From Sulfuritalea sp. (GTDB lineage: Bacteria > Pseudomonadota > Gammaproteobacteria > Burkholderiales > Rhodocyclaceae): a stretch of 45,577 nucleotides of DNA. A program made the position numbers and the translations under genes. This document shows positions 2,327 to 39,818 of the stretch, piece by piece; the stretch's first letter is position 1, and the number at the start of each line of letters is the position of its first letter. The notes below the pieces were generated by a model. The model was not told where the DNA came from. It did no database searches and was given only the letters and a program-made list of their open reading frames with translations. Location of the stretch: positions 1 through 45,577 of the forward strand of contig NZ_JAFLDR010000034.1 in the NCBI RefSeq assembly GCF_017302275.1, written 5' to 3'.

Positions 2327-2776
2327 TCACTGCGCGGGAATTTCGCGTTTGCAGCCACCGGCATCGATCGCGACGTAGGTCAGCACCGCTTCGGTCACCT
2401 TGACCGTGAGGACGTCATGCGCCCGGCGTTGGGCAAAGACCTCGACCGACAGCGTGATCGACGTCCTGCCGACCTTGACGATCTCGGCGTAGAAGCTGAC
2501 GACATCGCCGACCGAGATCGGCTGCTTGAAAAGAAAGGAATTGACGGCCACAGTCGCTACGGCGCCGCCGGTTCTCAGCTGCGCGGCGATGCTGCCGGCG
2601 ATATCGACCTGCGACATGACCCAGCCACCGAAGATGTCGCCGTTGGGATTGACGTCAGATGGCATCGGCATGACGCGCAGTTGCGGCTGCCGGCCCGCCG
2701 GAAGCTTCGCAGGTTGATTCACCATCAGCGATCGATCCGGCGCGAACGGTATCTGGCCACGGACGATCGCCTTCAC
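2327..2776 (-). CDS. YciA-type hotdog acyl-CoA thioesterase
   Basis: A 149-residue single-hotdog protein. The signature PNGDIFGGWVMSQVD matches the YciA/BfiT acyl-CoA thioesterase family, in which the Asp of this loop is catalytic. It would release CoA from an acyl-CoA, either as a pathway step or to prevent CoA trapping. The GTG start at 2776 overlaps the TGA of the upstream lipoamide dehydrogenase (GTGA), implying translational coupling, and GGGAGG lies about 11 nt upstream. An internal ATG at 2725 is possible but has no clear ribosome site. The downstream dehydrogenase/hydratase follows after 35 bp, so the gene belongs to the catabolic operon. Confidence 0.88.
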   Translation of the reverse strand: MKAIVRGQIPFAPDRSLMVNQPAKLPAGRQPQLRVMPMPSDVNPNGDIFGGWVMSQVDIAGSIAAQLRTGGAVATVAVNSFLFKQPISVGDVVSFYAEIVKVGRTSITLSVEVFAQRRAHDVLTVKVTEAVLTYVAIDAGGCKREIPAQ

Positions 2777-4176
2777 GCGTGGATCGGCCTCCCGTCTAGA
2801 CCACGCGCCGCTTCCATCACCGCCTCTGACAAGGTCGGATGGGCGTGGATCATGGACTGAACGTCTTCGGCCAGCAGTTCGCCATGCTTAGCCAGCAGCA
2901 GTTCGTGAATTAGTTCTGTCGCGTCGGCACCGACGATATGGGCGCCAAGCAATTCGCCAGTCTGCGGATCGGCCAAGACCTTCACCAAGCCCTCGGTGCG
3001 CCCGACGGCGACGCTCTTGCCGGCGCCGCGATAGGGAAAGACCGATTTCTTGAACTTTATCCCTTCCTTCACGGCGTGCGCCTCGCGCAGCCCGAATCCG
3101 GCCAGCTGTGGCTCGCAATAGACCGCCGAGGGCACAAGCTCCGGATCGACCCGTGGCTCGCGCGGCGAGTGACCGGCAATATGCTCGACGGCGATCTCGC
3201 CCTCCTTCGACGCGACGTGTGCCAGTTGCGGGCTACGGGTGATATCGCCGATCGCATAGATCGACTTGACGCTGGTTTCACCGTAATCGCCGGTAACGAT
3301 ATAGCCCTGATCGTCGATTTTGACGGTGAGCTTTTCCAGACCCAAATCCCGCGTATTCGGAACGCGTCCGAAGGCAGCCAGCACCTTGTCCGAAACGATT
3401 GTTTCCGACTTGCCGTTGGCGCTGACGACGACCGCGACGCCGGCAGCAGTCTTTTTGAGCGAAGCGGCGCGGCTGCCGGTACGGACATCGATTCCCGAGC
3501 GTCGGAAAGAGGCCTCGAGAACCTGCGCCGGTTCGTGATCTTCGCTCGGTAAAATATGCGCTGCCATTTCGACCAGCGTCACCTTAACCCCGAACGCATT
3601 CATGACGTAGGCAAATTCGCAGCCAATTGCGCCGGCGCCGAGGATTGTCATGCTTTTCGGCAATTCGGTCATCGCCAGCAGGCCCGATGAGGAAACGACC
3701 GACTGTTCGTCGAACTCGAAACCGGGAACGACCATCGGCCGTGAGCCGGTGGCGACGATGATGGTTTTCGCACTGAGAATTTTTCCGTCGAACTCACCGC
3801 CATGCAGGGCGATGCGGCCCGGGGCACTGATCGACGCCGTCGCCTTGAAAACCGACAACTTGTTCTTCTTCAACAGCCCGGCTACGCCGGAGGTCAAGGT
3901 TTTTGCCGCATCCCGTGACTTGGTCTGGACGGCGGCGTAACGAAAGCCAGACCGATCGATGCGGACCCCAACCGCTTCCATGTCCTTCAGCGCAAGAAAC
4001 TCATTGGCATGGTGAATCAGACTCTTTGACGGAATGCATCCCCAGTTCAGGCAGACGCCGCCGAGTTCAGCTTTCTCGACGACGGCAACCGACAAACCAA
4101 GCTGGGCAGCGCGAATGGCCGCGACGTAGCCGCCCGGGCCGCCACCAACGATAACGATGTCGTAGTTTGTGTTCAC
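2773..4176 (-). CDS. dihydrolipoamide dehydrogenase (E3)
   Basis: A 467-residue flavoprotein disulfide reductase that reoxidises lipoyl groups with NAD+. The FAD motif GGGPGG is near residue 11. The redox pair is C42/C47 in GGVCLNWGCIPSK, the NAD-binding GAGAIGCEF is mid-protein, and the C-terminal catalytic His446-Glu451 sits in HPTLSE. The start is GTG, 7 bp after the E2 stop, with only a weak ribosome site, so it is probably coupled to E2. A dedicated E3 next to E1 and E2 indicates a complex that does not rely on the housekeeping E3. Family assignment is certain. The complex substrate is discussed under E1 alpha. Confidence 0.95.
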   Translation of the reverse strand: MNTNYDIVIVGGGPGGYVAAIRAAQLGLSVAVVEKAELGGVCLNWGCIPSKSLIHHANEFLALKDMEAVGVRIDRSGFRYAAVQTKSRDAAKTLTSGVAGLLKKNKLSVFKATASISAPGRIALHGGEFDGKILSAKTIIVATGSRPMVVPGFEFDEQSVVSSSGLLAMTELPKSMTILGAGAIGCEFAYVMNAFGVKVTLVEMAAHILPSEDHEPAQVLEASFRRSGIDVRTGSRAASLKKTAAGVAVVVSANGKSETIVSDKVLAAFGRVPNTRDLGLEKLTVKIDDQGYIVTGDYGETSVKSIYAIGDITRSPQLAHVASKEGEIAVEHIAGHSPREPRVDPELVPSAVYCEPQLAGFGLREAHAVKEGIKFKKSVFPYRGAGKSVAVGRTEGLVKVLADPQTGELLGAHIVGADATELIHELLLAKHGELLAEDVQSMIHAHPTLSEAVMEAARGLDGRPIHA

Positions 4177-4183
4177 GATCGGC

Positions 4184-5440
4184 TCACAGAACCATCAGCT
4201 CAGGATGGCTGAGGAGGTCAGCGATCTTGCGGTTGAAGCTGGCCACCGGCACGCCATCCATCGCCCGATGATCAAAGCTCAGCCCGCAAGGAAGCATCGT
4301 TCGGATAACTATCGCGCCATCGATCACCACCGGTTTTTCAATCGGTGTTCCCGGCTGGAAATTGAAGACCTGCGGCTGATTGAGCAGCGGTGTTGACACG
4401 CACCATTCGCCGCCCATGAAACCGGCCGTGCTCGACAGGGTGACGGTGCCGTCGGCGGTATCCCGGGCGGTCAGGCTACCATCCCTCGCTGCCGCGACCA
4501 GCCGCCGGATTTCGCGATCGATCTCAAGCACGCCCTTGCTCCCGACGTCGCGCAGCACCGGCACCACCAGCCCCGATTCATATTCGCTCTTGCCCGGCAG
4601 AGCCGTCGCAATGCCTATGTTGACGTTCTCCCAGACGATGATTTCGTCGCCGACCAGCGTCGAGTTGATGATCGGAACCTGGCGACAGGCCAGCGCCATC
4701 GCTCGCGCATAGAATGCCGTCATCGAAACGCGGGTGCCAAGTTCCTCTTCGCGGGCCAGGATCGTCTTTCTTGCGGCGACAAGCTTGGTGACGTCGATTT
4801 CAAAGAAGACATAGGTATGGGCCGCCGTCGTCTTCGACTTGAGCATCCGCTCGGCAATCGCCTTGCGCATGCCGGCCAGTGGAACCCGGGCTTTTTCCCT
4901 CATCCCGGCCGCTTTGGCAGGCGTCCTCGGTGCCGCAACGCTCGCCGGACTGGCCAACGCTGCCAGCACGTCGCGCTTGACGATTCTGCCGCCCGGACCG
5001 GACCCGGCCAGAGAGGCCAACTCAAGTCCGTTCTGCGCCGCGATCTTCTTCGCTAATCCCGAGACCGGCTGGCGCCGGCCCGGAGCCGAAACTGCAGGCG
5101 CCGCCACCGCTGCCGGCGCCGTCACCGCCGGCGCCATCCCGGCCACCGGGGAACCCGACGCCGCGAGGGCTTTCGCCGACGCCAGCAGCTGACGGTATTC
5201 CTCCTCGGTTTCAGCAATCTGTGCGATTGGCTGCTCGACCGGAACGGTCGTCCCCACGACTGCGCAAATGTGGAGATAGCCACGATAAGGAGACGGCAGG
5301 TCCGTCACCACCTTCTCGGTCTCGATCGACAGCAGAATAACGTCTTTCTCGACGCGCCCACCTTCCGCCACCGCCCATTCGGCGATGGTCCCTTCTGACA
5401 TACCCATGGCCAGCTGGGGCATTACCATTTCGCGGATCAT
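4184..5440 (-). CDS. 2-oxoacid dehydrogenase E2 (dihydrolipoamide acyltransferase)
   Basis: A 418-residue acyltransferase with the usual three-part layout. One lipoyl domain occupies residues 1-78 (lipoyl Lys43 in ETEKVVTD). After an Ala/Pro-rich linker comes a peripheral-subunit-binding domain at about 124-162 (GLAKKIAAQ and GRIVKRDVL). The catalytic domain ends with His391 and Asp395 in HRAMDG. ATG 5440 is preceded by GAGGAG at good spacing and lies 9 bp after the E1 beta stop. It accepts the acyl group from E1 and passes it to CoA. The single lipoyl domain and compact size are closer to acetoin-dehydrogenase-type E2 than to the multi-lipoyl pyruvate E2 of many proteobacteria. Confidence 0.94.
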   Translation of the reverse strand: MIREMVMPQLAMGMSEGTIAEWAVAEGGRVEKDVILLSIETEKVVTDLPSPYRGYLHICAVVGTTVPVEQPIAQIAETEEEYRQLLASAKALAASGSPVAGMAPAVTAPAAVAAPAVSAPGRRQPVSGLAKKIAAQNGLELASLAGSGPGGRIVKRDVLAALASPASVAAPRTPAKAAGMREKARVPLAGMRKAIAERMLKSKTTAAHTYVFFEIDVTKLVAARKTILAREEELGTRVSMTAFYARAMALACRQVPIINSTLVGDEIIVWENVNIGIATALPGKSEYESGLVVPVLRDVGSKGVLEIDREIRRLVAAARDGSLTARDTADGTVTLSSTAGFMGGEWCVSTPLLNQPQVFNFQPGTPIEKPVVIDGAIVIRTMLPCGLSFDHRAMDGVPVASFNRKIADLLSHPELMVL

Positions 5441-5449: not shown

Positions 5450-6421
5450 TCAGCGGCAGACTTCGCGGATCGCGGCTTCGATCCGATCGGGCGTTGGCAT
5501 TGAATAGGCGTCGATGTAGCCCCCGGGAATCGGCATGTTCGGATGGCATACCCGCTTGACCGGCGCGTCGAGCAGGTCGTAGCCCTTTTCCATCATCAGG
5601 GCGCAGACTTCGGCGGCGAATCCGGCGCGCTCGTAGTCTTCGTCCACGATCACCAGGCGCGAGGTCTTTTCGACCGACCTGAGCAGACAATCGAGATCGA
5701 AGGGCTCGAAACTGCGCGGATCGATGACTTCAACACTGATCTCGTCCTTCAGCGCCTCCGCCGCCTTCAGGCTGTGATGAAGTTGCAGGCCGCTGGCCAG
5801 AACCGTCACGTCGGAGCCCGCGCGCTTGACGTCGGCAACGCCGAGCGGCACGACATAGTCCTCCAAGGGAACATGTCCTTTGGTCGCCATCAGGCTGGTA
5901 TGCCAGAGGAAGAACACCGGGTTGTTGTCGCGGATGGCGGACTTGAGCAGGCCCTTCGCGTCGTACGGTGTCGACGGCAAGCACACCTTGAGGCCGGGGT
6001 GATGGATCAGCGCCCCGTAGGGCAAGGTCGCATGCTCGTTGCCGACTCGCCGGCCTACCCCGCATGTACCGATCATCGTCAGCGGCAAGGGGTGCTGACT
6101 GCCGTGGAGGAAGTGGTACTGGCCGGACTGGAGAAAGACCTCCGACCCGGCAAAATAGGAAAATCCTGCGTACATCCAGTCCAGTACCGGCCGCAGTCCT
6201 TCCTGCGCGGCGCCGTAGGCGACCCCGAAATTGCCGGGTTCGGCCAACGGCGCATCGATGACGCGTTTGCCGCCGAACTCGTCGACCAAGCCCTTGGTAT
6301 AAAGGAAAGTGCCGGCACGAATGCTGATGCCAAGGAGAAAGACATCCTCGTCGCGGCGCATTTCCTCGGCGAGCGCCTCTTTCATCGCGTCGCCCAGCGT
6401 TATTTCCCGTGTAGTGCTCAT
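5450..6421 (-). CDS. thiamine-dependent dehydrogenase E1 beta subunit
   Basis: A 323-residue transketolase-fold subunit. It begins MSTTREITLGDAMKEAL, and the first domain carries ERVIDAPLAEPGNFG-type sequence (seen as RVIDAPLAEPGNFGVAYGAA). The C-terminal domain contains LASGLQLHHSLKAAE and EVIDPRSFEPFD. I chose the ATG at 6421, with AGGACA upstream. A longer open frame extends into the E1 alpha gene but has no homology there. With E1 alpha it forms the alpha2-beta2 decarboxylase of the complex. The gene lies between E1 alpha (20 bp upstream) and E2 (9 bp downstream), the standard operon order. Confidence 0.94.
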   Translation of the reverse strand: MSTTREITLGDAMKEALAEEMRRDEDVFLLGISIRAGTFLYTKGLVDEFGGKRVIDAPLAEPGNFGVAYGAAQEGLRPVLDWMYAGFSYFAGSEVFLQSGQYHFLHGSQHPLPLTMIGTCGVGRRVGNEHATLPYGALIHHPGLKVCLPSTPYDAKGLLKSAIRDNNPVFFLWHTSLMATKGHVPLEDYVVPLGVADVKRAGSDVTVLASGLQLHHSLKAAEALKDEISVEVIDPRSFEPFDLDCLLRSVEKTSRLVIVDEDYERAGFAAEVCALMMEKGYDLLDAPVKRVCHPNMPIPGGYIDAYSMPTPDRIEAAIREVCR

Positions 6422-6441
6422 CTTGTCCTGTCCCTTCGCGT

Positions 6442-7428
6442 TCACTGTGCGTAAACGCCGTTCATGAGTTCGTCGATACTCGGGGTCGCCTTCGGGCTGG
6501 CCTCGCAGAAGAGTTCGATCTCGTCGGCCTCGCGTTCGGCGTCGGCCTTGATCTGCTCGATCTCGTCGGCCGTGTACAGCCGCTGCTTTATCAGCTTGGC
6601 CGCCGCCAGCGCGACCGGATCGAGAGTCTCCCGCCACTCCTGCATGAGCTTCGGATCGCGGGTCACGGCGCCTTCGTTGTTGAGGCCGCCGACGTTGTGT
6701 TCCTGGCTGCGATAGGTCTTCAGTTCGACAAAGAACGGGCCTTTGCCGGCGCGGGCATGGGCGATCGCCTTGAGGGCCGCTTCTCCGCACGCGAACAGGT
6801 CCTGGCCATCGACGATGAGCGCGGGAATTTCGAAGGTGGCCGCGAGGCGGGAGACGTCTTGGACCGGAAAGGTTTCGCTCGCCGCAGTGCTCTGCGATAT
6901 TCCATTATTCTCGCACCAGAAAATGTGCGGCAGCTTCCAGTTCGCCGACATCAGCATTGCTTCGTGCGCCCGCCCTTCCTGATAGGAGCCGTCACCCGAG
7001 CAGTTCATGACGACCTGATCGGTGCCGCGATAGCGCGCCGCAAACCCGTAGCCGATGCACGGCGGAAAGTTGGCGCCGATGTTTCCCGACCAGCCAAAGA
7101 TATGGTGGTCAGGAAATGACACATGGAAACTCGAGCGACCCTTGCAGCAGCCGTCGACGCGCCCCATGTGCTCGGCGACATAGGTCCGCAGATCGACGCC
7201 CTTGCCGATCATGTGGGCGAGACCGTGCGCCCGGTAGTGCGGATTCATCGCGTCGTCCTGACGCAGGAAGCTCCCGGCGGCAACCCCCGGGGCAAGCGCG
7301 ATGCCGCCCTCGTGATAGAACCCGACCATCTTTCCCGCCCGGATGATGCGCATCATCATGCGGTCGAGAGCATGCGCACGAACGAGATTCGTGAATAGCA
7401 GCTTCTTCTGTTTGCCATTAAGTGCCAT
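6442..7428 (-). CDS. thiamine-dependent dehydrogenase E1 alpha subunit (acetoin/BqdL-like complex)
   Basis: A 328-residue E1 alpha. The thiamine diphosphate motif runs from GDG (145-147) to NN (174-175) with standard spacing. HYRAHG and a GRSSFH segment replace the usual phosphorylation-loop sequences. GGGGAAAGC lies just before the ATG. Length and split alpha/beta layout are like acetoin dehydrogenase. In anaerobic resorcinol degraders a pyruvate-dehydrogenase-like complex next to the Mo hydroxylase is held to cleave 2-hydroxy-1,4-benzoquinone. Because a homologue of that hydroxylase lies in this block, I infer a similar role, cleaving a cyclic quinone or diketone. The sequence alone does not rule out acetoin, pyruvate or a branched 2-oxoacid. 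Confidence 0.9.
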   Translation of the reverse strand: MALNGKQKKLLFTNLVRAHALDRMMMRIIRAGKMVGFYHEGGIALAPGVAAGSFLRQDDAMNPHYRAHGLAHMIGKGVDLRTYVAEHMGRVDGCCKGRSSFHVSFPDHHIFGWSGNIGANFPPCIGYGFAARYRGTDQVVMNCSGDGSYQEGRAHEAMLMSANWKLPHIFWCENNGISQSTAASETFPVQDVSRLAATFEIPALIVDGQDLFACGEAALKAIAHARAGKGPFFVELKTYRSQEHNVGGLNNEGAVTRDPKLMQEWRETLDPVALAAAKLIKQRLYTADEIEQIKADAEREADEIELFCEASPKATPSIDELMNGVYAQ

Positions 7429-7453: not shown

Positions 7454-8926
7454 TCAGCTCGCCGTCGTGACCTTGCCTTTTTTCAGATAGATCGACTTCT
7501 CTTCCTGGAAGAACTGGATACCGGTACTCCCCGCCTCGGGCAGCCCGAAGCCAGATTCCTTGACGCCGCCAAAGCACTGCTGCGGCTCCTTGTAGGCCGA
7601 ATGAACGTTGACGTGGGTCAGCCCGACTTCCGTGTGCTCGACGAAGTGCAAGGCCTTGTCGAGATCGCGCGTGTAGATCGACGACGACAGGCCGTAGGGA
7701 ACGGCATTGGCGAGTTCGAGCGCCGCACGATAATCGACGACACGGAAAACCGACAGGACGGGACCGAATATCTCGGTTCGCGCCGCATCGAGCTGCTCGG
7801 TGGCGTGATCGATCAGCGTCGGTTCGATGAAGCAGCCATGGTCCAGCGCTTCGCCGCGACAACGATTGCCGCCGGCGACGATTCGCGCCCCCTGTTCCCT
7901 GGCGCGCGCCAGGTGGTTCATAACCGACTCCAACTGCTGAGCACCGGCCACCGGGCCCATCGAGCTCGCCGTGTCATCCCACGGACCGACGCGAAGGAGC
8001 CCGATCCGCTCGATGACTCGGGCGACCAGCTCGTCGGCAACGCTCGCCTCGACGATCAGGCGACTGGTTGCCGTGCACCACTGGCCGGCACACGAGTAGG
8101 CGCCGATGACGGCGTCCTGGGCTGCGAGCTCGAGGTCGGCATCGGCGAGAACGACCATCGGGTTCTTGCCGCCCATCTCGAGCTGCGTCCGGGTGAAGTT
8201 GTCGGCGGCGCGACGGGCAATCCGGCGTCCGACCTCGGTCGAGCCGGTAAAGGTCACGGCGCGAATCCGCTGGTCGGTCACCAGGGCGTCGGAGAGTTCG
8301 CTCCCGGAACCGGTGACGAACTGGACGACGCCGTCGGGAATCCCGGCCTCAACCAGCAATTGCACGACCAGCTCGCCGACTCCGGGCGTCTGGCTGGCCG
8401 GCTTGAAGATCGCGGTGTTGCCGGCCATCAGCGCGGGGCCGATCTTGCGCCAGGGCACGTTGAAAGGAAAGTTCCACGGCACGATCACCGAAACGACGCC
8501 GAGCGGCTCCTTGCGCGAGTAGCCGAGCAGACCATCACGGTAGCAGTCGCTGGCGCGTCCGAACTGCCGCTCGCCTTCGCCGATCTGGTATTCGAGTTCG
8601 AGCGCGGCGGCATCGATCTCAGTCAGCGACTCCGCCAGGAGCTTGCCATTCTCCAGCGAAATGCACCGGGCGATTACATCGCGGCGCTCGCGCATCAGTC
8701 TCGCGGCAGCACGGAGAATTCGCGTTTTCTCGCCGAGTCCGATCTTGCGCCAGGTAGCGAAGGCCTGCTGCGCCCCGCTGATCGCCCTAGCGACGTCGGA
8801 AGCGCTGCTAAGCGGGTAATCATGGCAGCGCCGTCGCAAGTCGGCCGGATCGAAGACGGAATACGTCCGGCCCGATTCCGAATCGCACCACTGTCCGTCA
8901 ATGTAATTCTTGTACTTGAGTTGCAT
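7454..8926 (-). CDS. NAD(P)-dependent aldehyde dehydrogenase
   Basis: A 490-residue aldehyde dehydrogenase. The motifs are PWNFPFNVPWRK near 150, the nucleotide loop FTGSTEVG near 226, the general base Glu250 in QLEMGGKNP and the catalytic Cys284 in GQWCTATSR. It is full length and lies 25 bp upstream of E1 alpha in the same direction. It most likely oxidises an aldehyde produced during ring cleavage or side-chain shortening to the acid. The ribosome site before the ATG is weak. There is no CoA-acylating signature, so a free acid product is more likely than an acyl-CoA. Confidence 0.93.
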   Translation of the reverse strand: MQLKYKNYIDGQWCDSESGRTYSVFDPADLRRRCHDYPLSSASDVARAISGAQQAFATWRKIGLGEKTRILRAAARLMRERRDVIARCISLENGKLLAESLTEIDAAALELEYQIGEGERQFGRASDCYRDGLLGYSRKEPLGVVSVIVPWNFPFNVPWRKIGPALMAGNTAIFKPASQTPGVGELVVQLLVEAGIPDGVVQFVTGSGSELSDALVTDQRIRAVTFTGSTEVGRRIARRAADNFTRTQLEMGGKNPMVVLADADLELAAQDAVIGAYSCAGQWCTATSRLIVEASVADELVARVIERIGLLRVGPWDDTASSMGPVAGAQQLESVMNHLARAREQGARIVAGGNRCRGEALDHGCFIEPTLIDHATEQLDAARTEIFGPVLSVFRVVDYRAALELANAVPYGLSSSIYTRDLDKALHFVEHTEVGLTHVNVHSAYKEPQQCFGGVKESGFGLPEAGSTGIQFFQEEKSIYLKKGKVTTAS

Positions 8927-8989: not shown

Positions 8990-9400
8990 CTACGAAAATG
9001 CTCTGCCAAGACCGATCGCCGTCGTCGCAATTGCTACGAGAAAGCCGACGTCAGCCAGACCCATCATCGGGCGAAACCGCGCCAGCGCCGCGCTTGTCCA
9101 GATGACGGTGGACACCATCAGCCCAATCCCCACCGCATTGACGACCATGGGCGCCAGCGCAAGACGGGGCAGGACCACCGAGACGAGCACGCAGACCACG
9201 GAAAATAGGAAGCCGTGCGCATGCACCGTCACCGTCCAGCGAAATGCCGTGTGCAGGTGGTGGTACTCGGCCAGTTGGCCGGTGTTGGCCAACGCTTCCA
9301 GTCTTTCCGCGACGCCGAGGTGCTTGACTCCGAGATAGAGACCGATCAATGCAGAAACTAACATCCAGGTAAAACCGAATATTTGAAGCAGGTCGCTCAT
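8990..9400 (-). CDS. small four-helix membrane protein of unknown function
   Basis: About 136 residues with four hydrophobic stretches: residues ~5-25, ~50-75, ~77-97 and ~110-130. Between the first two lies a polar segment with HHLH and two further His (RWTVTVHAHG). I do not recognise the family. The clustered histidines could bind heme or metal, but nothing proves it. AGGA sits directly before the first ATG (9406), so the second ATG at 9400 is better spaced. It follows the 3-hydroxyisobutyrate-dehydrogenase-like gene by a few bases, which suggests a dedicated role in the pathway, for example quinone-linked electron transfer or transport. Confidence 0.7.
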   Translation of the reverse strand: MSDLLQIFGFTWMLVSALIGLYLGVKHLGVAERLEALANTGQLAEYHHLHTAFRWTVTVHAHGFLFSVVCVLVSVVLPRLALAPMVVNAVGIGLMVSTVIWTSAALARFRPMMGLADVGFLVAIATTAIGLGRAFS

Positions 9401-9408
9401 CGCCATTC

Positions 9409-11274: not shown

Positions 11275-11399
11275 TTCGTTTTCCGCCTCGCTCAATGTCG
11301 TATCGACCATTACTAGCCACATTTGATCGCCTCGCACTCCACCAACTAAGTGGGCAACAACTGCAACGCTTATCTACAAATCACTGGCAATTTACCTGT

Positions 11400-13923: not shown

Positions 13924-13962
13924 CATCATTTCCTTTGTGCGTTAATAGTTGCGCTTCGCCCA

Positions 13963-14937: not shown

Positions 14938-17906
14938 GCTTCCACCATTGCGTTCCAACGATCGATTTCGATTAAGCAGGAATTAGGGGCGCTGCCCTCA
15001 GTACCCTGCATCTGCCGCCGATCAGGGGTCAGCCCGTTAACGCATCCACCACGGTCAGCGACTCTTCCTTGCGAATCCTTGACCAGGTCATACTCGGCAC
15101 TAGCCTGGAACGAGACAACCACGCCTGCAACCACCATCGGTGAAATATCGGCGGCACATAGAACCGCCCCGCGGTCGTTGAATAGCCGCACCAGATCATG
15201 TTGGTGGATACCACGTCGTCCTGCATCTTCAGGATTGATGCGCACCAACCAGTAGTAGTGTCCATCTACAGCAATACGATGGTCTTCAATATCATTGGTG
15301 ACGCTGTCCTTGCCGTCGTTATAGGTGTGGAAGCTGAAACGCGAGTGCGGCGAAATCATCTGCAACGGATATTTTTTCATCAATTCGCCGCTGTGAAGTC
15401 CTTCCCATGCCGGTATGTATCGATTGAGTGCTGGACGTTCCGGATTGTCGGGGTCGCAGCGCTTCAGCGTTTCGGACACGAACTCGATTTTCCCAGACGG
15501 AGTCTGCAATCCCTTACCGAACTCTTCCGCATATTGCGACGGCAGGGGCATAGGTTCAGGAACGTCCTTACGCCGGTCTTCGGCATACCAGCGAAAGTTA
15601 ACAGGATCGCGAGTTTTTTCAGGCTCTGCAGGAACAACGTAATACCCCTTCTTCACAAACTCAGCCCATCCGATACGCTCGGGTAAGTCCGACGAGTCGA
15701 ACACACGCTTACACCAGTCGAGCTCGCTGCCCCCTTCCGAAAACAGCGCGCCGAGTCCGAGTCGGGTGAGAATATCGAGAAAGATCTGGTAATCGGATTT
15801 CGACTCGCCAAGTGGTTCAATGCATTTGTGCTGCATGACCGCAACCCGGTGGTTGAGTTGGCCCTGAAGGTGGTGCACATAGCCAGCGCAATTTGACCAT
15901 TCGCCGATATCCCAGCGCTCCAACGCAGTACAGGCTGGCAAAATTACGTCCGCGAACTTGGCCTCGCCTTCGAACCAGATCGACTGGTTGACTACGCACT
16001 CAAGGGATGAATGCCGGTACATCTCTGCAAAACGACCAGAATTGGCCACCGTACCGAAGGATGAACCGCCATAACGGTACATCATATGAATTGGCGAATA
16101 ACCTGGCATCGGATACTCAAAGGGCGCAAACTGCGCTTCCAGCGAAGATCCGTCCCAAGCGTACCCGGTCGCTCGCCCATTAATGATCGCCTCTGGAAGA
16201 CGTTGGCGCGGCACCATCTGCTTAACCGGATTCATCGTCAGCACATGCGGCATACGTTGGTAGTTATTGACTGCGCATGCTGAGAACTGAAGCTCCCCCG
16301 ACATGCCTCCCTCCGCATAACCGGGAAAATAGAACGCAAAATCCAGAGGAGTCCCTATCTGGAGATTGCCGAAGTTCACGCCCGGTTTGCCCCAGCCCTG
16401 CATTGCCATCATCAATATCATGCAACGAGCCCACTGCCCTCCCGTTGCGTTTCGGCAAGCACCTCCAAAGCCGGTCCCGCCGCTGCCCGGTGCTAGGTAG
16501 GTTTTTTTGTTTCCCCACGCCCGCGCCAACGCACGTACATCAGCCGCCGGAATACCGGTCTCAACCTCCTGCCACTCGGGAGTTTTAGGCACGCCGTCGC
16601 TGGTGCCAAGCAGATAATCCTGCCACTCGTCAAAGCCGGTAGTTCGCTTCGACACATAGTCCATGTCGTAAAGCCCTTCCACCGCCCACACATACATTAC
16701 AGCAATAGCTAGCGCCGGATCGGTTCCGGGTCGTATCGGTAGCCATTTGCCACCGTACACCTGTGCCGTCGCCGTGTAGTTGGGAGTTATATGGACAAAT
16801 TCGATGCCCAATTCACGCGCCCAGAAGCGGCGTTCGGTTCCTTCAGCACCACCGTATGCCCCAGGCACCGACTGTGGATCGCCAGACCAGAAGACGATCA
16901 TTTCACATTCCTTGAGGCAATCCTCAACCGTGCCGTACGAGGCGGCAACACCGATGCGCATGCTGTTTCCGAAATGGTGCTGGGCGCCCCAGTACCAGCC
17001 CTCCCAACTATCGGGGTTCAAGTGAACCCGCGTGTAACCGATCAGATTGCCGAATCGCTGCATCGCGCTCAAGTAGTAGCCGACGTTGCCCCATTGATGA
17101 TGCGAACTGTGGTAGAGCGTGATCGCACCAGGACCGTGCTCCCGTTTCATTCGTTTGATCTCTCCGACAACGATATCCAGCGCCTCGTCCCAACTGATGC
17201 GCACGTAACCGGAAACTCCGCGATTTTGAGGATTGCGTTCCCCGGCCGGATCAAAGTCAACCCGCTTCATCGGATACAACACTCGCTTTTCCGAGTAAAC
17301 CAGCGACTTCAGTGACAGCGCATGCGGAGCCACCGTTGCCTGCCGCCGTGGCGAAAATGCTTTGCCCCGCGCAAGGATCGTCCAACTCGGTGCGTCGGTA
17401 TCTTCAAAATCAATGGGGGTCGTGCGGATGATCCGGCCACCCTTGACCCAAACGAATAGCGGCCCTCCATTGGTAGTGGTCGTAAAACGCGTTGTGCCGT
17501 CGGGCATCGCCGTGCCAAATGTAAGGCTTGTCATCTGAATGCGATTCAATAGCTGCATGAACCAAACTGCAAGGTCATCGGGTCCGGCGACAACAACCTT
17601 GAAATTTTTCGCCGCATGAACGATATCGAGCGGCTTTTGCATCGGTGGTGGCTTTAGAAAAACGAATGCGGTAGGCAAATCCTTGAAGACCATGGCTACA
17701 TCTGGGTTCGGGTGAATGCCGGCGACCGACCGCACTACGCCATGATTAAAAGTAAAGTAGCGCCCGATGCTATCGTCTTTGAGCTTGATCTGAACGACGC
17801 AATTGTGGCGACGCATAAACTCGAGAAACGACGAATTTTTACGTGCTGTTTTGGTTAGAACCCGAGGCAATATCGCGAGCACCGTTTTCAATAGAAATCG
17901 TTTCAT
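14934..17906 (-). CDS. Mo-bis-MGD transhydroxylase/resorcinol hydroxylase-type large subunit with N-terminal SCP2-like domain
   Basis: 990 residues, DMSO-reductase superfamily. From about residue 126 to the end it follows the large subunit (AthL) of pyrogallol-phloroglucinol transhydroxylase: FVWVKGGRIIRTTPIDF, ERNPQNRG, SSHHQWGNVGY and NPDSWEGW. With an offset of 125, the AthL active-site residues H144, Y152, D174, S175 (Mo ligand) and W176 map to H269, Y277, D299, S300 and W301. R153 is Tyr278. Y404 probably maps to Y530 in FYFPGYAEGG. There is no N-terminal Fe-S motif, as in AthL. Residues ~30-122 look like an SCP2 sterol-carrier fold. There is no Tat signal, so it is cytoplasmic. GAGGAA precedes the ATG. 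Predicted role is O2-independent hydroxylation of a phenolic ring. Confidence 0.92.
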   Translation of the reverse strand: MKRFLLKTVLAILPRVLTKTARKNSSFLEFMRRHNCVVQIKLKDDSIGRYFTFNHGVVRSVAGIHPNPDVAMVFKDLPTAFVFLKPPPMQKPLDIVHAAKNFKVVVAGPDDLAVWFMQLLNRIQMTSLTFGTAMPDGTTRFTTTTNGGPLFVWVKGGRIIRTTPIDFEDTDAPSWTILARGKAFSPRRQATVAPHALSLKSLVYSEKRVLYPMKRVDFDPAGERNPQNRGVSGYVRISWDEALDIVVGEIKRMKREHGPGAITLYHSSHHQWGNVGYYLSAMQRFGNLIGYTRVHLNPDSWEGWYWGAQHHFGNSMRIGVAASYGTVEDCLKECEMIVFWSGDPQSVPGAYGGAEGTERRFWARELGIEFVHITPNYTATAQVYGGKWLPIRPGTDPALAIAVMYVWAVEGLYDMDYVSKRTTGFDEWQDYLLGTSDGVPKTPEWQEVETGIPAADVRALARAWGNKKTYLAPGSGGTGFGGACRNATGGQWARCMILMMAMQGWGKPGVNFGNLQIGTPLDFAFYFPGYAEGGMSGELQFSACAVNNYQRMPHVLTMNPVKQMVPRQRLPEAIINGRATGYAWDGSSLEAQFAPFEYPMPGYSPIHMMYRYGGSSFGTVANSGRFAEMYRHSSLECVVNQSIWFEGEAKFADVILPACTALERWDIGEWSNCAGYVHHLQGQLNHRVAVMQHKCIEPLGESKSDYQIFLDILTRLGLGALFSEGGSELDWCKRVFDSSDLPERIGWAEFVKKGYYVVPAEPEKTRDPVNFRWYAEDRRKDVPEPMPLPSQYAEEFGKGLQTPSGKIEFVSETLKRCDPDNPERPALNRYIPAWEGLHSGELMKKYPLQMISPHSRFSFHTYNDGKDSVTNDIEDHRIAVDGHYYWLVRINPEDAGRRGIHQHDLVRLFNDRGAVLCAADISPMVVAGVVVSFQASAEYDLVKDSQGRVADRGGCVNGLTPDRRQMQGTEGSAPNSCLIEIDRWNAMVEA

Positions 17907-18147: not shown

Positions 18148-19518
18148 TCAGCGGACACCTTCGCCGACCATGCCGTCTGGGGTAAAGATCAAGTCGGAGA
18201 AGGGAGCTGTGATCTTGATTTGAGACGGACTCTCATTGAAGAGGACGTTCATGAACATGGATCCGGAGATCAGATCGTAGACACCCCAACCGGCATCGAT
18301 AGTGGCGGGGCCGTCAGGCAGGACGACGGGGATATTGAAGGGCATCCGGGACAGTTGGCCATTGGCATCCCATCGGTCAGCAAGTACGGCCAGCCACGTA
18401 TCCTCGTCGAGGTAGTAACGGCTTTTTGGCGAAGTGTGACGTTGACCTGGTTTGAGAGTGGCCTCGACAATCCAGACCCGATGCAGCTCCCAGCGCACGT
18501 GATCGGGGTTGAGGAAATGATCGCCCACCACGTCCGCATCCTTGGTCGGCACCAGGGTACGGTTGCTGTTGTAGGGGATGTAAATCTCTTTCTTACCCAC
18601 GAGTTTCCAGTCGAAACGATCCTTGCGCGCGGTGAACACCGTCACCTCGTCGAAGCTGACGATGCCTGCAGAGAAGGGCGTCGGCGTATCACAGCACGAG
18701 TTGGGCAGCTTGCGCACACGGCGCTGGCCAGTGAGATACACCCAAGCGCCAGTCTTGCTCTCATCGAGAGTGAGCCGGGCAGCGATCCCTTCGCCGGCGC
18801 GTACCGGCGGTCCTGAGTTGAAGGAACGCACCAGCCAGTATTCGCCCTGAAATTTGCTTTCGCCGTCCTTGATGTAATACGGCATCTGCTGTTCGTTGGT
18901 CGATTCAAGCACCGGCACGCGACGACCATCGGCGGTAACCATGTAGCCGTGAAATTTCTCCCACTTCTGCGACGGCGGGCGCCAACGCAACTCATGGTTC
19001 CAGAGAGCCTCGATGCCCGTCTTGGGGATCGGAAACGGAATGCCGCCGTAGGCACCGTCAGGTTGCGGGCCAGCCCCCCCCTCAGCGATCTTGGCGCGGG
19101 TCGCGTTCTTGAAGGTGTTGTCATATACCCACTGCGGTGCGGCGGCAGTGCGGTGAGTCGGATAGACGTCGATCCGGTAATTCGGATACTTCTTCATCAG
19201 GGCCTTGACACCCTCGGTAAGCTTGTCGGCGTGCTGATCCATGTTCTTGGCACTGATGGAGAACAGCGGCTTCTCGTTGGCAAAGGGATCAGGGCGGCGA
19301 TCACCGCTCTTGTAGCCGGGACTCGGCTTGGTATAACCGCCGTCCCACGCTGGAATGGTGCGATCTTTGTTACCCGCCTTCTCGGCGCCGAACGGGGTTA
19401 GGTCAGATTTCAGGCGGGCGGCTTCCTCGGCAGTAACGGCGGCACCAACTGGCATGGCAACAGCGAACGTCATCACCAAGGCTACACAGCGCAATGAAGT
19501 ATGCAAATGGAAAGTCAT
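18148..19518 (-). CDS. DUF1329-family exported protein
   Basis: 456 residues. An N-terminal signal peptide (hydrophobic ALVMTFAVAMPVGA, cleavage after AVA-like GAAVTA) is followed by the DUF1329 hallmark start (EEAARLKSDLTPFGAE, AGN, IPAWDGG). The family resembles outer-membrane-associated lipoprotein carriers and is usually paired with a DUF1302 protein in clusters for steroids, terpenes and other hydrophobic substrates. GGAGA precedes the ATG, and the gene lies 12 bp after the DUF1302 gene. Probable role: periplasmic handling of a hydrophobic substrate. Confidence 0.88.
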   Translation of the reverse strand: MTFHLHTSLRCVALVMTFAVAMPVGAAVTAEEAARLKSDLTPFGAEKAGNKDRTIPAWDGGYTKPSPGYKSGDRRPDPFANEKPLFSISAKNMDQHADKLTEGVKALMKKYPNYRIDVYPTHRTAAAPQWVYDNTFKNATRAKIAEGGAGPQPDGAYGGIPFPIPKTGIEALWNHELRWRPPSQKWEKFHGYMVTADGRRVPVLESTNEQQMPYYIKDGESKFQGEYWLVRSFNSGPPVRAGEGIAARLTLDESKTGAWVYLTGQRRVRKLPNSCCDTPTPFSAGIVSFDEVTVFTARKDRFDWKLVGKKEIYIPYNSNRTLVPTKDADVVGDHFLNPDHVRWELHRVWIVEATLKPGQRHTSPKSRYYLDEDTWLAVLADRWDANGQLSRMPFNIPVVLPDGPATIDAGWGVYDLISGSMFMNVLFNESPSQIKITAPFSDLIFTPDGMVGEGVR

Positions 19519-19530: not shown

Positions 19531-21282
19531 TCAGAACGTGCGGCGCAGCGAGAACGCGACAAAGTCGCGATCCTTCATGGTCTGGCCATAGGTATAGTTG
19601 TTTAGGGCATTGGCAAACGTCTTCTCCGGACCGAAGTAATGGGTGTAAGCCAGACTGAAGCGCCAAGCATCGAGATAGGTGCCATTGACTCCGATGCTGA
19701 CGTCGCCCCCCCCGTCGGCAGGCATCGCTCCCGGGCCAAGAACCATTGAGCGCGAACCACGCGTTCCGTATCCGAGGCCAATAGGCACGGAGAGATCGAG
19801 ACCGGAGACTACCTGCCTATACATCGGCTCGAAGATGAAGCGCAGAGCCGTGGCATCACGGGTTGCATTCGGGTCAATCGCAGCACCATTCGCCGTGATA
19901 TGCAGCACCCGGTTCCAGGCAACCTCGCCTAGAAAGGTGGCCTCGTTAAACAATCCTGACGGCGGTAAAGACCAGAGTGTCGACAGATTGATGTGGGCCG
20001 TGTTGCCCAGTGGATACGCCGGGTTGTTGCTGTTGTTGGTGGCCACTCCACCAAGAATGCTGGTATCGACCGGCGTGCTGCTGGCCAAGTCCTGGTCGCG
20101 GCGGAATGAGACTTCGCCGGCCAAGTTTACGTCGCCGAAGGTGTGACTGAAGCTGCCACCGAAGGCGGTGATGCCTTCCTGATAAACAAAGCGATAAGAC
20201 ACCGGCACGCCGGGCATTGCACAACTGGCCGGTCCCGTCGGAACTGATCCAGGAACCACACAACCCGGACCGGGAAATATTCCGATTACCGGTTGCAAGC
20301 CAATGTTGACTACCTGCTGGGGGCTCTTGCCGTGGAAGCGGATCAGATAGAGTCCGTAATCGGTACTACCGTCTCGAATACGCAACTGCAAACCTCCCTG
20401 ACCTGAATTTTTGGCCGACTGGTCGTCGACGTGGGGAATCGCATTGCCTTGGAGGAAGGGCGGATTGGGCAACCCAAGCAGCAATTGTTCGGCGCCACCC
20501 GGGCCGGTATCGGTCGCCGAGAAATAGCTGCCGGCGACCGGCAGACGGTTAGCCTTCCAGCGCAGCTGGTAGTAGCCGCCCAAGGTGACATCCGAAGTCA
20601 GTTGTATCTGGCCCGATAGCATCTGCACCGGACGAATCGCCTCCTTGAACTGCGTGTTGGGCACCGATAACAACTTGACGACGTCAACGGGCATCATGCC
20701 GCCAGCAATACCGTTGGCGCCAAAAAACAGTGACTCACCCCAGACCAGCGAATGCTTGCCCGCGCGCACTGTCGCTGCGCGCTCGCCTAAATCGAACTTG
20801 CCGAAGACGAATGCGTCGAGCAGTTCGCCACCATTGCCGTGGATCTTCCTGGCCTCACTGGTGAACTGGTTATAGGGCACCGACGCCTGGTTGGCCGTGC
20901 CGTCGTTGGGGTGATCATTATTGCGGTTGTATTGAGCGTCATACCATGCCGCACCGCTTAACCTCAGGCCGACGTTCTTGTAGCTCACATCGAACTCCGA
21001 CAGGAGATCAACCCGATTTGAGATCAGTCCCTTCTTGAAGTTGGCGTCGCCATCGTTAAAGTTGGGGTTCGCTGTCAGGGTGGTACTCGGATCTTTAACA
21101 CGCCACGCCGAGCTGTACTTGACGGTGTTGTCCCAGCGCATCTGTACATCGGAATTGCCGCTATCAATCTCAAAGGCCCACGCACCCGCACAAGCCCCGA
21201 TCGTTCCCAGTAATACCAACGCGAAATTCGCCAAAAAAACGCTAGCCGCCAGCTTGCCGCCGACGCGGATCCGCTTTGCCAT
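19531..21282 (-). CDS. DUF1302-family outer-membrane protein
   Basis: About 583 residues. After a signal peptide (hydrophobic core LAASVFLANFALVLLG, processing near AWAFEID) come alternating beta strands. The protein ends in AFSLRRTF, a terminal Phe as in outer-membrane barrels. Motifs such as QMRWDNTVKYS, GKHSLVWGES and GGYYQLRW are typical of DUF1302. I chose the ATG at 21282 because AGGAGGAG lies before it; a longer frame adds 16 residues without a ribosome site. It is first in its transcription unit, directly under the operator-bearing promoter. It probably acts as a channel or receptor for the hydrophobic substrate. Confidence 0.9.
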   Translation of the reverse strand: MAKRIRVGGKLAASVFLANFALVLLGTIGACAGAWAFEIDSGNSDVQMRWDNTVKYSSAWRVKDPSTTLTANPNFNDGDANFKKGLISNRVDLLSEFDVSYKNVGLRLSGAAWYDAQYNRNNDHPNDGTANQASVPYNQFTSEARKIHGNGGELLDAFVFGKFDLGERAATVRAGKHSLVWGESLFFGANGIAGGMMPVDVVKLLSVPNTQFKEAIRPVQMLSGQIQLTSDVTLGGYYQLRWKANRLPVAGSYFSATDTGPGGAEQLLLGLPNPPFLQGNAIPHVDDQSAKNSGQGGLQLRIRDGSTDYGLYLIRFHGKSPQQVVNIGLQPVIGIFPGPGCVVPGSVPTGPASCAMPGVPVSYRFVYQEGITAFGGSFSHTFGDVNLAGEVSFRRDQDLASSTPVDTSILGGVATNNSNNPAYPLGNTAHINLSTLWSLPPSGLFNEATFLGEVAWNRVLHITANGAAIDPNATRDATALRFIFEPMYRQVVSGLDLSVPIGLGYGTRGSRSMVLGPGAMPADGGGDVSIGVNGTYLDAWRFSLAYTHYFGPEKTFANALNNYTYGQTMKDRDFVAFSLRRTF

Positions 21283-21362
21283 TTTGTCTCCTCCTAATAA
21301 ATTTATCGGCTCGAAGCCATGGCCCAACACCCCCTAGCGCTCTTCATATCGTGGCGCCATTG

Positions 21363-21412: not shown

Positions 21413-21419
21413 GTTGACT

Positions 21420-21617: not shown

Positions 21618-22610
21618 TTAAAGATCAACCTTCAGAACGTCAGATTTCGCCCTTGATACACAGGGCAAGAATTGCCGGTTTTCTTTTTGTTCTGCCGGCG
21701 TCAAATAGTGGTCACGATGGTCTGGTTCTCCCTCCAGCACCCGAGTAAGACAGGTTCCGCATACCCCTTGCTCACACGATGCTGGAACTGTTATCCCCGC
21801 GGTCGCTAGTGCTGCAATTGCGGTTTGCCCTGGCGCCACCAGCACGAAGCTACCGTTACTGTTCAGATGTAGGGAGAAGGCCTTGTCAGCAGCCCCTGCT
21901 ACCGCAGTCGCACCAAAGTATTCGTAATGGACATTGCTGGCGAGCCATCCATGCACTTGTGCTGAACTTTTCACGGCCTCAATAAATCCCTGAGGACCGC
22001 AGACGTAAAGGTGCGTGTCTGGCGAAGGAAACGCGAGCACCTTAGATAGGTTCAGCCTCTGTTCTGGCACCCCATCATCATAATAATACTTGACGTGATC
22101 CGAGTAACGGGCGCAGCGAAGCAGGTCCGTGAAGGCCATTCGTGACGCGTTGCGACCACAATAATGCAGATCAAAGTCCTCTTCATGCATTGACAGCGAC
22201 TCAGCCATGGCAAGGATGGGAGTGATACCGATTCCCCCGGCTAATAGCAGCGATTTCCGGGATGACGCAACCAGTGGAAAGTGATTGCGCGGTTGGCTTA
22301 TAGTCAGGTCGTCCCCTTCCTGTACCTGATCATGCAAAGCGACCGAGCCGCCACGAGAGGAAGTGTCGCGCAACACGCCCAAGACATAACGATGGGTCTC
22401 CTCAGGCGAGTTGCAAAGGGAATACTGACGCACCATCCCGTTTGGCAAGTGGACATCGATATGTGCCCCGGCAGCAAAAGGCGGCAATGACTTACCTCCC
22501 CGTGCAACGAGCTCAAATCGCGCAATGTTTTGCGCAACAATTTCTTTGCGCATTATGCGGACCAGGATGTTCTTTTCTTCTGAGGTATCACCCTCATGCT
22601 GCCTGTGCAT
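21618..22610 (-). CDS. VanB-like reductase of a Rieske oxygenase (flavin + [2Fe-2S])
   Basis: About 330 residues, phthalate-dioxygenase-reductase layout. The flavin-binding RQYSL is at 61-65, the NAD-binding GGIGITPI mid-protein, and the C-terminal plant-type [2Fe-2S] domain has C279, C284, C287 and C317. It passes electrons from NAD(P)H to the adjacent oxygenase. I chose the ATG at 22610, with GGGAG 8 nt upstream; this overlaps the oxygenase gene by 17 bp. An upstream frame extension has no ribosome site. The pair resembles vanillate O-demethylase, but many related O- and N-demethylases exist. Confidence 0.92.
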   Translation of the reverse strand: MHRQHEGDTSEEKNILVRIMRKEIVAQNIARFELVARGGKSLPPFAAGAHIDVHLPNGMVRQYSLCNSPEETHRYVLGVLRDTSSRGGSVALHDQVQEGDDLTISQPRNHFPLVASSRKSLLLAGGIGITPILAMAESLSMHEEDFDLHYCGRNASRMAFTDLLRCARYSDHVKYYYDDGVPEQRLNLSKVLAFPSPDTHLYVCGPQGFIEAVKSSAQVHGWLASNVHYEYFGATAVAGAADKAFSLHLNSNGSFVLVAPGQTAIAALATAGITVPASCEQGVCGTCLTRVLEGEPDHRDHYLTPAEQKENRQFLPCVSRAKSDVLKVDL

Positions 22611-23637
22611 GTGCACACTCCCGCTGTCGCAATTGTTGCAATACACGCCTTACTCGCACAGCAGCCGCATCTCCGGCCAGAAGAACCGGGTTCAAGGAAA
22701 GGAGATCAGGAGTTCCCATGTAATCGGCCACGGCCTCGATCATGGGTTCATCCTCGGTTTCGAAAGCCTGCTTGACCTGACCTTCCATAAATTCACTCAC
22801 CGCTTCGTCACCGATTGCAAAATTGCGCGCTGAGACCCAGAAGTAATGAGTCTCGGAGTCCGAGGCAGGCGTAAGAAGGTGTGCAAAGTGCAAATCCACT
22901 CCACCTCCCGAAGAATTCCCAATTCCCGTGTAGCCGACATCCAATTGAAGATTCGAAGGCGGATTCCAGCGCATATTGGCTCGGCCATCAGCATCAAGTG
23001 TTGGAAATTTCCAGAATGGCCTGAACTGAGGGGAAACCAAAACGTTTTTGAGCCAATGGTTAGCAATGACGACATCACCTTCTTGCAGCATTTCGAAACG
23101 CAGGCCCTTGACGTCATCTCGGTTCGCAAGCGTGGTCGGATGAAGAAAAGGCGCGTGGCTCAGATCCATTAGATTGTCGAGAACCACTTCGACGTGGGCC
23201 TTGAGCTTGTAGTATCCAGCAATCAAAGACCGGTTTTCAGCATCGAAGAACGAGGTGAGATCCAACACCTTCTCGGCAGCGGCCAGTGCTGGGTTCCCGG
23301 GCCAGATCCAGATTAGGCCATCTCTTTCGACCAGAGGATAACGACGCACCTTTGCAGTACTGGGAATCTTTCCGTCTCCATGCGGACTAAGAACGCACAA
23401 GCCGCTTCGGCCATCGAATTGCAGTCCGTGGTAGGGACACTCGATATTGCTGCCTACAACCTGCCCCTTGTGCAAGGGTGCAAAGCGGTGGGGACAACGA
23501 TCGTCCAAGGCGCAGGGATATCCTTCCTCGGTTCGGTATAGAACCACGGACTGCCCAGCGATCATCTGCTTAATTGGTTTAGTGGTTACATCCTTGGCGA
23601 AGGCCGCCACATACCACTGATTCATCAGGAATTCCAT
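22594..23637 (-). CDS. Rieske non-heme iron oxygenase (VanA-like)
   Basis: About 347 residues. The Rieske ligands C48/H50 and C67/H70 are in RCPHRFAPL and ECPYHGLQ. The mononuclear iron motif is NLMDLSHAPFLH (D158, H161, H166). Size and sequence suit the vanillate O-demethylase / toluene-sulfonate monooxygenase group (single alpha subunit). ATG 23637 is preceded by GTGGAG; the GTG inside that site could be read as a start, but the spacing favours the ATG. It would use O2 to demethylate or hydroxylate an aromatic ring before the Mo enzyme acts. O2 dependence contrasts with the O2-independent hydroxylase downstream. Confidence 0.92.
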   Translation of the reverse strand: MEFLMNQWYVAAFAKDVTTKPIKQMIAGQSVVLYRTEEGYPCALDDRCPHRFAPLHKGQVVGSNIECPYHGLQFDGRSGLCVLSPHGDGKIPSTAKVRRYPLVERDGLIWIWPGNPALAAAEKVLDLTSFFDAENRSLIAGYYKLKAHVEVVLDNLMDLSHAPFLHPTTLANRDDVKGLRFEMLQEGDVVIANHWLKNVLVSPQFRPFWKFPTLDADGRANMRWNPPSNLQLDVGYTGIGNSSGGGVDLHFAHLLTPASDSETHYFWVSARNFAIGDEAVSEFMEGQVKQAFETEDEPMIEAVADYMGTPDLLSLNPVLLAGDAAAVRVRRVLQQLRQRECAHAQAA

Positions 23638-39816: not shown

Positions 39817-39818
39817 CC

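Follow-up and report, generated by a model that had tools for sequence, protein, structure and literature searches.

The window analysed here is the whole of contig NZ_JAFLDR010000034.1, 45,577 bases of the 4.41 Mb genome of Sulfuritalea sp. (assembly GCF_017302275.1, Rhodocyclaceae). It carries a block of 18 close-packed genes on the minus strand, running from 23649 down to 111, of which the contig end cuts the left side; the intergenic gaps across the block range from -53 to 287 nucleotides (nt) when the E1 beta gene is counted from 6421. Along the minus strand the order is a Rieske oxygenase, its reductase, a DUF1302 protein, a DUF1329 protein, the large subunit (AthL) of a molybdenum hydroxylase, an MDR protein, a long acyl-CoA dehydrogenase, a RutE-like reductase, the small subunit of the hydroxylase (AthS), a HIBADH-like dehydrogenase, a 138-amino-acid (aa) hydrophobic protein, an aldehyde dehydrogenase, the E1 alpha, E1 beta, E2 and E3 components of a thiamine/lipoamide complex, a YciA-like thioesterase and a hydroxyacyl-CoA dehydrogenase/hydratase fusion, which is the last gene before the contig end. 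All the parts named in a first-pass annotation of this DNA are confirmed in one minus-strand block by Pfam, NCBIfam and PDB matches, and the range proposed there, 2773-23637, agrees with the E3 gene at one end and the Rieske ATG at the other; the fusion is present as claimed but is located at 111-2330, just left of that range. The Zn-type MDR, HIBADH-like, 138-aa hydrophobic, aldehyde dehydrogenase and YciA-like thioesterase genes were not in that annotation. The principal features are as follows.

22594-23649, minus strand: Rieske oxygenase of the VanA_C type, GdmA/DdmC-like, ATG start at 23637 (PF19112, E 2.9e-47)
21618-22646, minus strand: FAD/NAD/2Fe-2S reductase of the Rieske pair (PF00111, PF00175; FNR/Fer2)
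19531-21330, minus strand: DUF1302 protein, AmeA-like, predicted outer-membrane (PF06980, E 7.9e-130)
18148-19518, minus strand: DUF1329 protein, AmeB-like, predicted periplasmic (PF07044, E 5.6e-122)
14934-17906, minus strand: AthL-like molybdopterin hydroxylase large subunit with an N-terminal SCP2-like domain (PF21423, PF00384, PF01568)
17487-17906, minus strand: SCP2-like domain, AthL residues 1-140 (predicted fold)
10372-11337, minus strand: AthS-like Fe-S small subunit (PF13247; PDB 4v4c_B, E 8.1e-76)
6442-7428, minus strand: E1 alpha, thiamine-dependent (PF00676, E 3.4e-53; GDG...N motif)
5450-6421, minus strand: E1 beta, start corrected (PF02779 and PF02780, from residue 129 of the listed open reading frame)
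4184-5440, minus strand: E2 lipoyl acyltransferase (PF00198, PF02817, PF00364; ETEKV and HRAMDG motifs)
2773-4176, minus strand: E3 dihydrolipoyl dehydrogenase (TIGR01350, 512.6 bits against a cut-off of 408.8)

The AthLS pair has the AhtL-like domain 1 (PF21423, E 1.4e-25), the MopB domains and the Fe-S small subunit of its family. Both subunits match the pyrogallol-phloroglucinol transhydroxylase of Pelobacter acidigallici (PDB 4v4c) over nearly their full length, AthL reaching E 6.1e-278 against chain A, annotated as pyrogallol hydroxytransferase, and the Mo-ligand serine is retained. Of the residues that we take to form the transhydroxylase active site (H144, Y152, R153, D174, S175, W176 and Y404), AthL keeps the equivalents of six out of seven; R153 is replaced by Tyr, and this position is occupied by Y, W or H in all 94 AthL relatives compared, never by Arg. 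A further difference from the transhydroxylase is an extra domain at the N-terminus: AthL residues 1-140 have no counterpart in the solved structure and can be aligned in 90 of the 94 relatives. The fold predicted for this region, with Foldseek and VIA matches to its model, is that of an SCP2 lipid-carrier domain. SCP2 domains also occur in UbiT and UbiJ, where they help the ring hydroxylation of hydrophobic aromatics, in an O2-independent manner in the case of UbiT (PMC6747719), whereas the SCP2-like domain of the block is fused to a catabolic-type molybdenum enzyme. The AthL gene of Sinorhizobium terangae (L029:16076-20514; L-numbers denote loci) is interrupted at residue 142, where the SCP2 and catalytic parts meet; the roughly 1.5 kb in between contains a 371-aa open reading frame (ORF) that by eye resembles an IS110-type transposase.

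The Rieske protein has the CxH...CxxH motif, the VanA_C domain and the NxxDxxHxxxxH iron motif, the two sequence motifs presumably being the set typical of aryl O-demethylases. Its nearest solved structures are PDB 7qwt (E 3.6e-67) and the dicamba O-demethylase DdmC (3gb4, E 6.9e-65), while 3-ketosteroid 9alpha-hydroxylase is matched far more weakly (E 1.6e-12). The pairing of the name GdmA with guaiacol O-demethylation is in part our own assumption. A table in PMC12445004 gives 7QWT as GdmA of Rhizorhabdus wittichii and cites work on guaiacol O-demethylation. As in GdmA and DdmC, the match covers the Rieske and VanA_C regions in full, and a reductase gene adjoins; unlike them, the Rieske gene shares an operon with a molybdenum hydroxylase. 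These matches support aryl O-demethylation as the probable role of the pair, in line with an earlier guess that the substrate is demethylated. The next two genes correspond to AmeA and AmeB, described in PMC6394551 as DUF1302 and DUF1329 proteins dealing with apolar compounds in the monoterpene metabolism of Castellaniella. The block shares this pair with the AmeABCD apolar monoterpene efflux set of Castellaniella defragrans but lacks AmeC (YCF48-like) and AmeD (RND/MMPL), both of which are present in two relatives described below (L034 and L037) and clustered with the pair in Ramlibacter. The predicted SCP2 domain together with DUF1302/DUF1329 thus suggests that the substrate is a hydrophobic phenol, and the SCP2 prediction strengthens a guess of hydrophobicity already made in the first-pass annotation.

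The sequence motifs of the complex are intact: the thiamine motif in E1, the lipoyl and HxxxDG motifs in E2 and CxxxxC in E3. The listed ORF of E1 beta (5450-6790) is over-extended; homology begins only at about residue 124-129, so that the true start probably lies near 6421. Although the nearest solved structures of both E1 subunits are E1 proteins of the pyruvate dehydrogenase type, E1 fell below the listed NCBIfam pyruvate dehydrogenase cut-offs (E1 alpha, 200.1 against 393.85 bits; E1 beta, 269.6 against 321), and E2 below those for oxoglutarate (240.8 against 449) and acetoin (68.2 against 307) as well as pyruvate; the list tested held the pyruvate, oxoglutarate and acetoin-E2 models and neither an acetoin E1 nor a branched-chain model. 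Membership of the pyruvate, oxoglutarate or acetoin dehydrogenase families was rejected on these scores, a rejection limited by E3, which passes its general cut-off, and by the PDH-type character of the nearest solved E1. Among 399 genomes of the order, E1 alpha finds a match at E <= 1e-60 only in its own genome. Neither the window nor any other locus combining AthLS with E1 was matched at E <= 1e-3 by the FAH, two VOC and AMP-ligase queries, which leaves E1-E2-E3 as the one visible candidate for opening the ring. Ring opening by such a complex is presumably the role of Bqd in resorcinol degraders.

Is the neighbourhood of AthLS and E1-E2-E3 peculiar to this contig? AthLS loci were collected by a scan of genome contigs, the best 80 of 580 confirmed ones being used, and the window proteins were mapped onto them by tblastn. 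In L034, from a Janthinobacterium metagenome-assembled genome (MAG), and L037, from a Rhodocyclales MAG, the order DUF1302-DUF1329...AthL-AthS-HIBADH...aldehyde dehydrogenase-E1 alpha-E1 beta is kept, with identities in L034 and L037, respectively, of 68 and 67% for E1 alpha (in the genomes behind these loci), 77 and 74% for E1 beta and 69 and 71% for aldehyde dehydrogenase. Both also carry a hydratase ahead of the aldehyde dehydrogenase plus YCF48-like and MMPL genes. The L037 contig stops inside E1 beta, and E2-E3 of this layout are observed only in L034, which goes on, about 4 kb later, with a 52% identical hydroxyacyl-CoA dehydrogenase/hydratase and then an ORF that looks by eye like a thiolase. 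A second E1 architecture, in which E1 is fused, is found in Sedimenticola selenatireducens (L035/L135), where a 745-aa E1 (33%), HIBADH (27%), aldehyde dehydrogenase (35%), E2 and E3 form a set divergent from AthLS with two ORFs in between, and in a Burkholderiaceae MAG (L136), which has AthL-AthS-HIBADH...E1-E2-E3 and no aldehyde dehydrogenase match. AthLS with E1 nearby is thus found in four other genomes and in two E1 architectures, so that the linkage suspected from the window alone is well supported; its recurrence speaks against a complex that serves an unrelated substrate such as acetoin. E1 alpha at 50% identity or more occurs in three of the 37 genomes or records behind AthLS loci (L034, L037 and Pseudomaricurvus), and a fused E1 at E <= 1e-100 in four of 45 such genomes. 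Pseudomaricurvus alkylphenolicus (L125-L126) carries a set of E1 alpha (52%), E1 beta (61%), E2 and aldehyde dehydrogenase and has AthLS elsewhere in its genome; no AthLS match was found across the 40 kb examined around the E1 set, which counts against a strict tie.

The front of the block has its relative in another layout. Ramlibacter sp. WS9 carries BKACE, Rieske (54%), reductase (54%), DUF1302 (56%), DUF1329 (66%), AmeC-like and AmeD-like genes, followed by VOC, FAH, AthL, AthS and RutE (54%); genes for VOC (dioxygenase superfamily) and FAH proteins occupy the place of E1. Other candidate cleavage genes stand near AthLS in many of the best 80 loci: FAH is matched in 47, VOC in 34, AMP-ligase in 28 and BKACE in 14, and of the 70 that are no shorter than 15 kb, 45 have FAH, three have E1, none has both and 22 have neither. 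Many proteobacteria have AthLS with a VOC protein, an FAH-family hydrolase and frequently an AMP-ligase (L022, L024, L028, L048, L070 and others), a set that perhaps performs O2-dependent cleavage downstream of the molybdenum hydroxylase, and in Bacillota, Myxococcota and Actinomycetota BKACE is often matched near AthLS (L087, L088, L092, L096, L097, L100 and L112). In a quick AthL tree the loci with E1 are not grouped in a single clade, and AthLS often lacks E1, so that the association of the two is modular.

The window thus combines a Ramlibacter-type front with an L034-type back, and its base composition changes accordingly along the block. The GC content is about 0.62 at 1-10 kb and 0.53-0.56 at 10-25 kb; the right flank, beginning at 32.5 kb, has 0.65-0.68. 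At third codon positions (GC3) it is 0.55-0.60 in the Rieske, reductase, AthL, MDR, acyl-CoA dehydrogenase and RutE genes, 0.65 in AthS, 0.68-0.71 in the DUF pair, 0.70-0.80 from HIBADH through the hydratase fusion and 0.87-0.89 in three right-flank genes. The step sits at the seam between AthS and HIBADH, near 10.3 kb; at the same seam the values are level in L034 (0.70 on both sides) and differ less in L037 (0.79 and 0.88). GC3 and the occurrence of two separate layouts among relatives led us to reject a single ancestral operon. By composition and gene order the block is probably a hybrid of two pathway layouts, a foreign mosaic acquired horizontally. A search for the same gene order elsewhere, as had been proposed, finds the E1-side and Rieske-side orders again, although in separate layouts, and the block holds as a unit in the sense that its parts are tied through relatives, as modules, but not as one inherited arrangement.

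We read the block, at about an even chance of being right, as a catabolic operon of mosaic origin whose substrate is a hydrophobic phenol, probably methoxylated, and whose host can use both O2 and nitrite. DUF1302 and DUF1329 would deal with the apolar compound at the envelope, and the Rieske pair would take off the O-methyl group when O2 is available. The SCP2 domain may then hold the greasy phenol for the molybdenum hydroxylase, which would add a water-derived hydroxyl group. A hydroxyhydroquinone-like product would be oxidised to a hydroxyquinone, and the thiamine of E1 would attack its 1,2-dione tautomer and cleave the ring, after which E2/E3 would carry the acyl group out as acyl-CoA. With an unsubstituted ring the product would be 4-oxohex-2-enedioyl-CoA, as expected if thiamine attacks hydroxybenzoquinone in its 1,2-dione form and the acyl group passes to lipoamide. 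The HIBADH-like protein, aldehyde dehydrogenase, RutE and the beta-oxidation enzymes would complete the breakdown. In the host genome PF02239 (cd1 nitrite-reductase type) has four matches over cut-off and COX1 has five, so that O2-dependent and O2-independent steps can coexist; the host probably respires nitrite, while NarG had no match over cut-off in its genome.

A molybdenum hydroxylase of the AthLS kind and a complex resembling E1-E2-E3 are also the parts of the oxidative hydroxyhydroquinone pathway of Azoarcus anaerobius and Thauera aromatica AR-1, which we take to consist of RhLS or DbhLS, the hydroxyhydroquinone dehydrogenase BtdLS and Bqd, with an E1-E2-E3-like composition. The two parts stand in one cluster in the window, L034, L035/L135, L136 and, up to the contig end, L037. 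The block may differ from that pathway in the predicted SCP2 domain of its AthL and does differ in adding the Rieske demethylase, DUF1302/1329, HIBADH and RutE, with no second molybdenum enzyme seen. Some bacteria degrade resorcinol through hydroxyhydroquinone and oxidative dearomatisation (PMC10470551), and RhL is a Ser-coordinated relative of transhydroxylase (PMC10100899). The gene set had been called undescribed, and no description of it or of an SCP2-fused AthL was found among the listed matches of the literature searched, which left most subscription papers outside; the kind of pathway, however, is already known.

Other explanations have to be weighed against this one. It is possible, though we think it rather unlikely, that E1-E2-E3 is a downstream 2-oxo acid dehydrogenase acting on a fragment and that the ring is cleaved by the product of a gene past the contig end or elsewhere. 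The PDH-type structures nearest to E1, the resemblance of HIBADH, aldehyde dehydrogenase, acyl-CoA dehydrogenase and hydratase to a branched-chain oxo-acid route, and the contig stopping at position 1 where further genes follow in L034 all fit such a role, whereas the failure of E1 and E2 to reach the listed pyruvate, oxoglutarate and, for E2, acetoin cut-offs (the branched-chain model being unlisted) and the lack of any FAH, VOC or ligase match in the loci with AthLS and E1 argue against it. A valine-type branched-chain oxidation by E1-E2-E3, acyl-CoA dehydrogenase, hydratase, HIBADH and aldehyde dehydrogenase, whose families fit though no branched-chain model was applied, was set aside as the principal explanation because the same run includes AthLS and the Rieske pair and because the combination is found with AthLS elsewhere; it survives as part of the alternative just described. 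The composition step near 10.3 kb and the integrase close by (30449-31801) would suit an island on which two unrelated systems, Rieske/AthLS (GC about 0.55) and an oxo-acid dehydrogenase (about 0.62), met by chance; we consider this improbable, as AthS and HIBADH are neighbours in L034 and L037 too, L136 has AthLS-HIBADH-E1-E2-E3, and both sides are close-packed on a single strand. Least probable of all is a steroid or terpene pathway in which SCP2, DUF1302/DUF1329 and beta-oxidation serve an isoprenoid and AthLS hydroxylates its ring. The part played by AmeA/AmeB in Castellaniella monoterpene metabolism (PMC6394551) and the presence in the host genome of several further MopB proteins, 914-962 aa long, are consistent with it, but six of the seven residues of the phenol site in pyrogallol transhydroxylase are retained in AthL, and aryl O-demethylases match the Rieske protein far better than the ketosteroid hydroxylase does (E 3.6e-67 against 1.6e-12).

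Several points also weigh against the phenol operon itself. No hydroxyhydroquinone dehydrogenase was recognised, and no second MopB gene is found among the block genes, whose contig stops within the block. The tie between AthLS and E1 is not strict: E1 users are few (three in the best 80 loci, plus L136 and the window), so that its mutual exclusion with FAH is based on just three E1 loci; AthLS without E1 is common and is found on eight plasmids, in five other genomes of the order and in genome G763 in the stretches examined; the E1-type rows are not a single clade in a quick AthL tree; and E1 alpha at E <= 1e-40 is missing from the genomes of L036 and L033, nearest in that tree to L037 and L034. 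PF21423 itself is matched in six of 399 genomes of the order and four of 369 of the class, the host's own counted in both. Only the window and one other genome tie the Rieske pair to AthLS: of the 80 best loci, one (L108, 29%) has, within 10 kb of AthLS, a Rieske match over half its length, with a partial match in L075 (52% over 115 aa), and although five of 22 genomes behind AthLS loci have the Rieske protein at E <= 1e-60, only in Ramlibacter is it demonstrated beside AthLS, the pair being absent at that threshold from the other E1-type genomes (behind L034, L035, L037 and L103). In Sedimenticola, E1 and E2 are separated by a 193-aa ORF that looks VOC-like by eye, and the L034 contig carries a BKACE gene; a different cleavage route may operate in these two. 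The GC3 of the two parts differs (0.55-0.60 against 0.70-0.80), 10 of the 94 relatives, though not the window, have Ile in place of Asp174, and the Pfam SCP2 model PF02036 is sub-threshold in two of nine AthL fragments and unmatched in that of the window. All functions given here are read from sequence.

The remaining genes of the block are listed below.

13963-14958, minus strand: Zn-dependent MDR, quinone-oxidoreductase-like (PF00107, PF08240)
12130-13929, minus strand: 599-aa acyl-CoA dehydrogenase with a PF12806 tail (Pfam)
11497-12087, minus strand: RutE-like nitroreductase-fold reductase (NF003768, 276.9 bits against a cut-off of 152)
9409-10290, minus strand: beta-hydroxyacid dehydrogenase, HIBADH family (PF03446, E 3e-33)
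8990-9406, minus strand: 138-aa hydrophobic protein (no Pfam match)
7454-8926, minus strand: aldehyde dehydrogenase (PF00171, E 1.1e-149)
2327-2776, minus strand: YciA-like acyl-CoA thioesterase (PF03061; NF007970, 119.6 bits, under the cut-off of 162)
111-2330, minus strand: 3-hydroxyacyl-CoA dehydrogenase/enoyl-CoA hydratase fusion (PF02737, PF00725, PF00378)

The MDR protein scores 189.2 bits against TIGR02824, under the cut-off of 296.8; its gene overlaps that of AthL by 25 nt, and an MDR gene likewise stands between AthL and AthS in L037. RutE occurs near AthLS in five of the 80 best loci, all without E1, and was for that reason not accepted as proof of malonic semialdehyde. The HIBADH gene comes after AthS in L034, L037 and L136. 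The 138-aa protein has a 41% homologue with the VHAH motif at the equivalent place in L034, none being found in L037, and is possibly a membrane electron-transfer partner.

To the right of the block lie a trypsin-like gene, a PLD-like gene, the tyrosine integrase with an Arm-DNA-bind_3 domain mentioned above, and a formate dehydrogenase set at 36172-44073 (a MopB protein with a 2Fe-2S domain, FdhD and a ferredoxin-like protein) of higher GC content, which could remove the C1 unit from demethylation, yet is located beyond the integrase. No tRNA was found in the window, an Rfam search of which was likewise empty, and promoter and terminator counts between 9000 and 25200 were not above those of shuffled sequence. 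The other MopB proteins of the host (contigs C13, C46, C30, C58 and C12) are similar to NarG, below cut-off, and are perhaps, we assume, hydrocarbon or steroid hydroxylases of the type II DMSO-reductase family.

The oxidative hydroxyhydroquinone pathway, known from nitrate reducers, would thus be extended to a molybdenum hydroxylase with a fused, predicted lipid-carrier domain. The SCP2-fused enzyme occurs in many soil and root-associated proteobacteria, and the data suggest that ring-cleavage modules have been swapped around it. A tentative and broader view, which we consider less likely than not, is that these widespread SCP2-bearing hydroxylases, in hosts that often look aerobic by name, serve phenolic lipids or greasy phenols, that cleavage modules (VOC dioxygenase with FAH, E1-E2-E3, perhaps BKACE) are exchanged among them, and that in the present case a thiamine/lipoamide complex, and no dioxygenase, opens the ring and yields acyl-CoA directly, O2-dependent demethylation being combined with O2-independent hydroxylation and cleavage. 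If this is true, one molybdenum enzyme family would be an overlooked entry, whether O2 is present or not, into the breakdown of phenolic lipids or hydrophobic methoxyphenols, and the neighbouring E1-E2-E3 complexes would be testable ring openers that give acyl-CoA directly.

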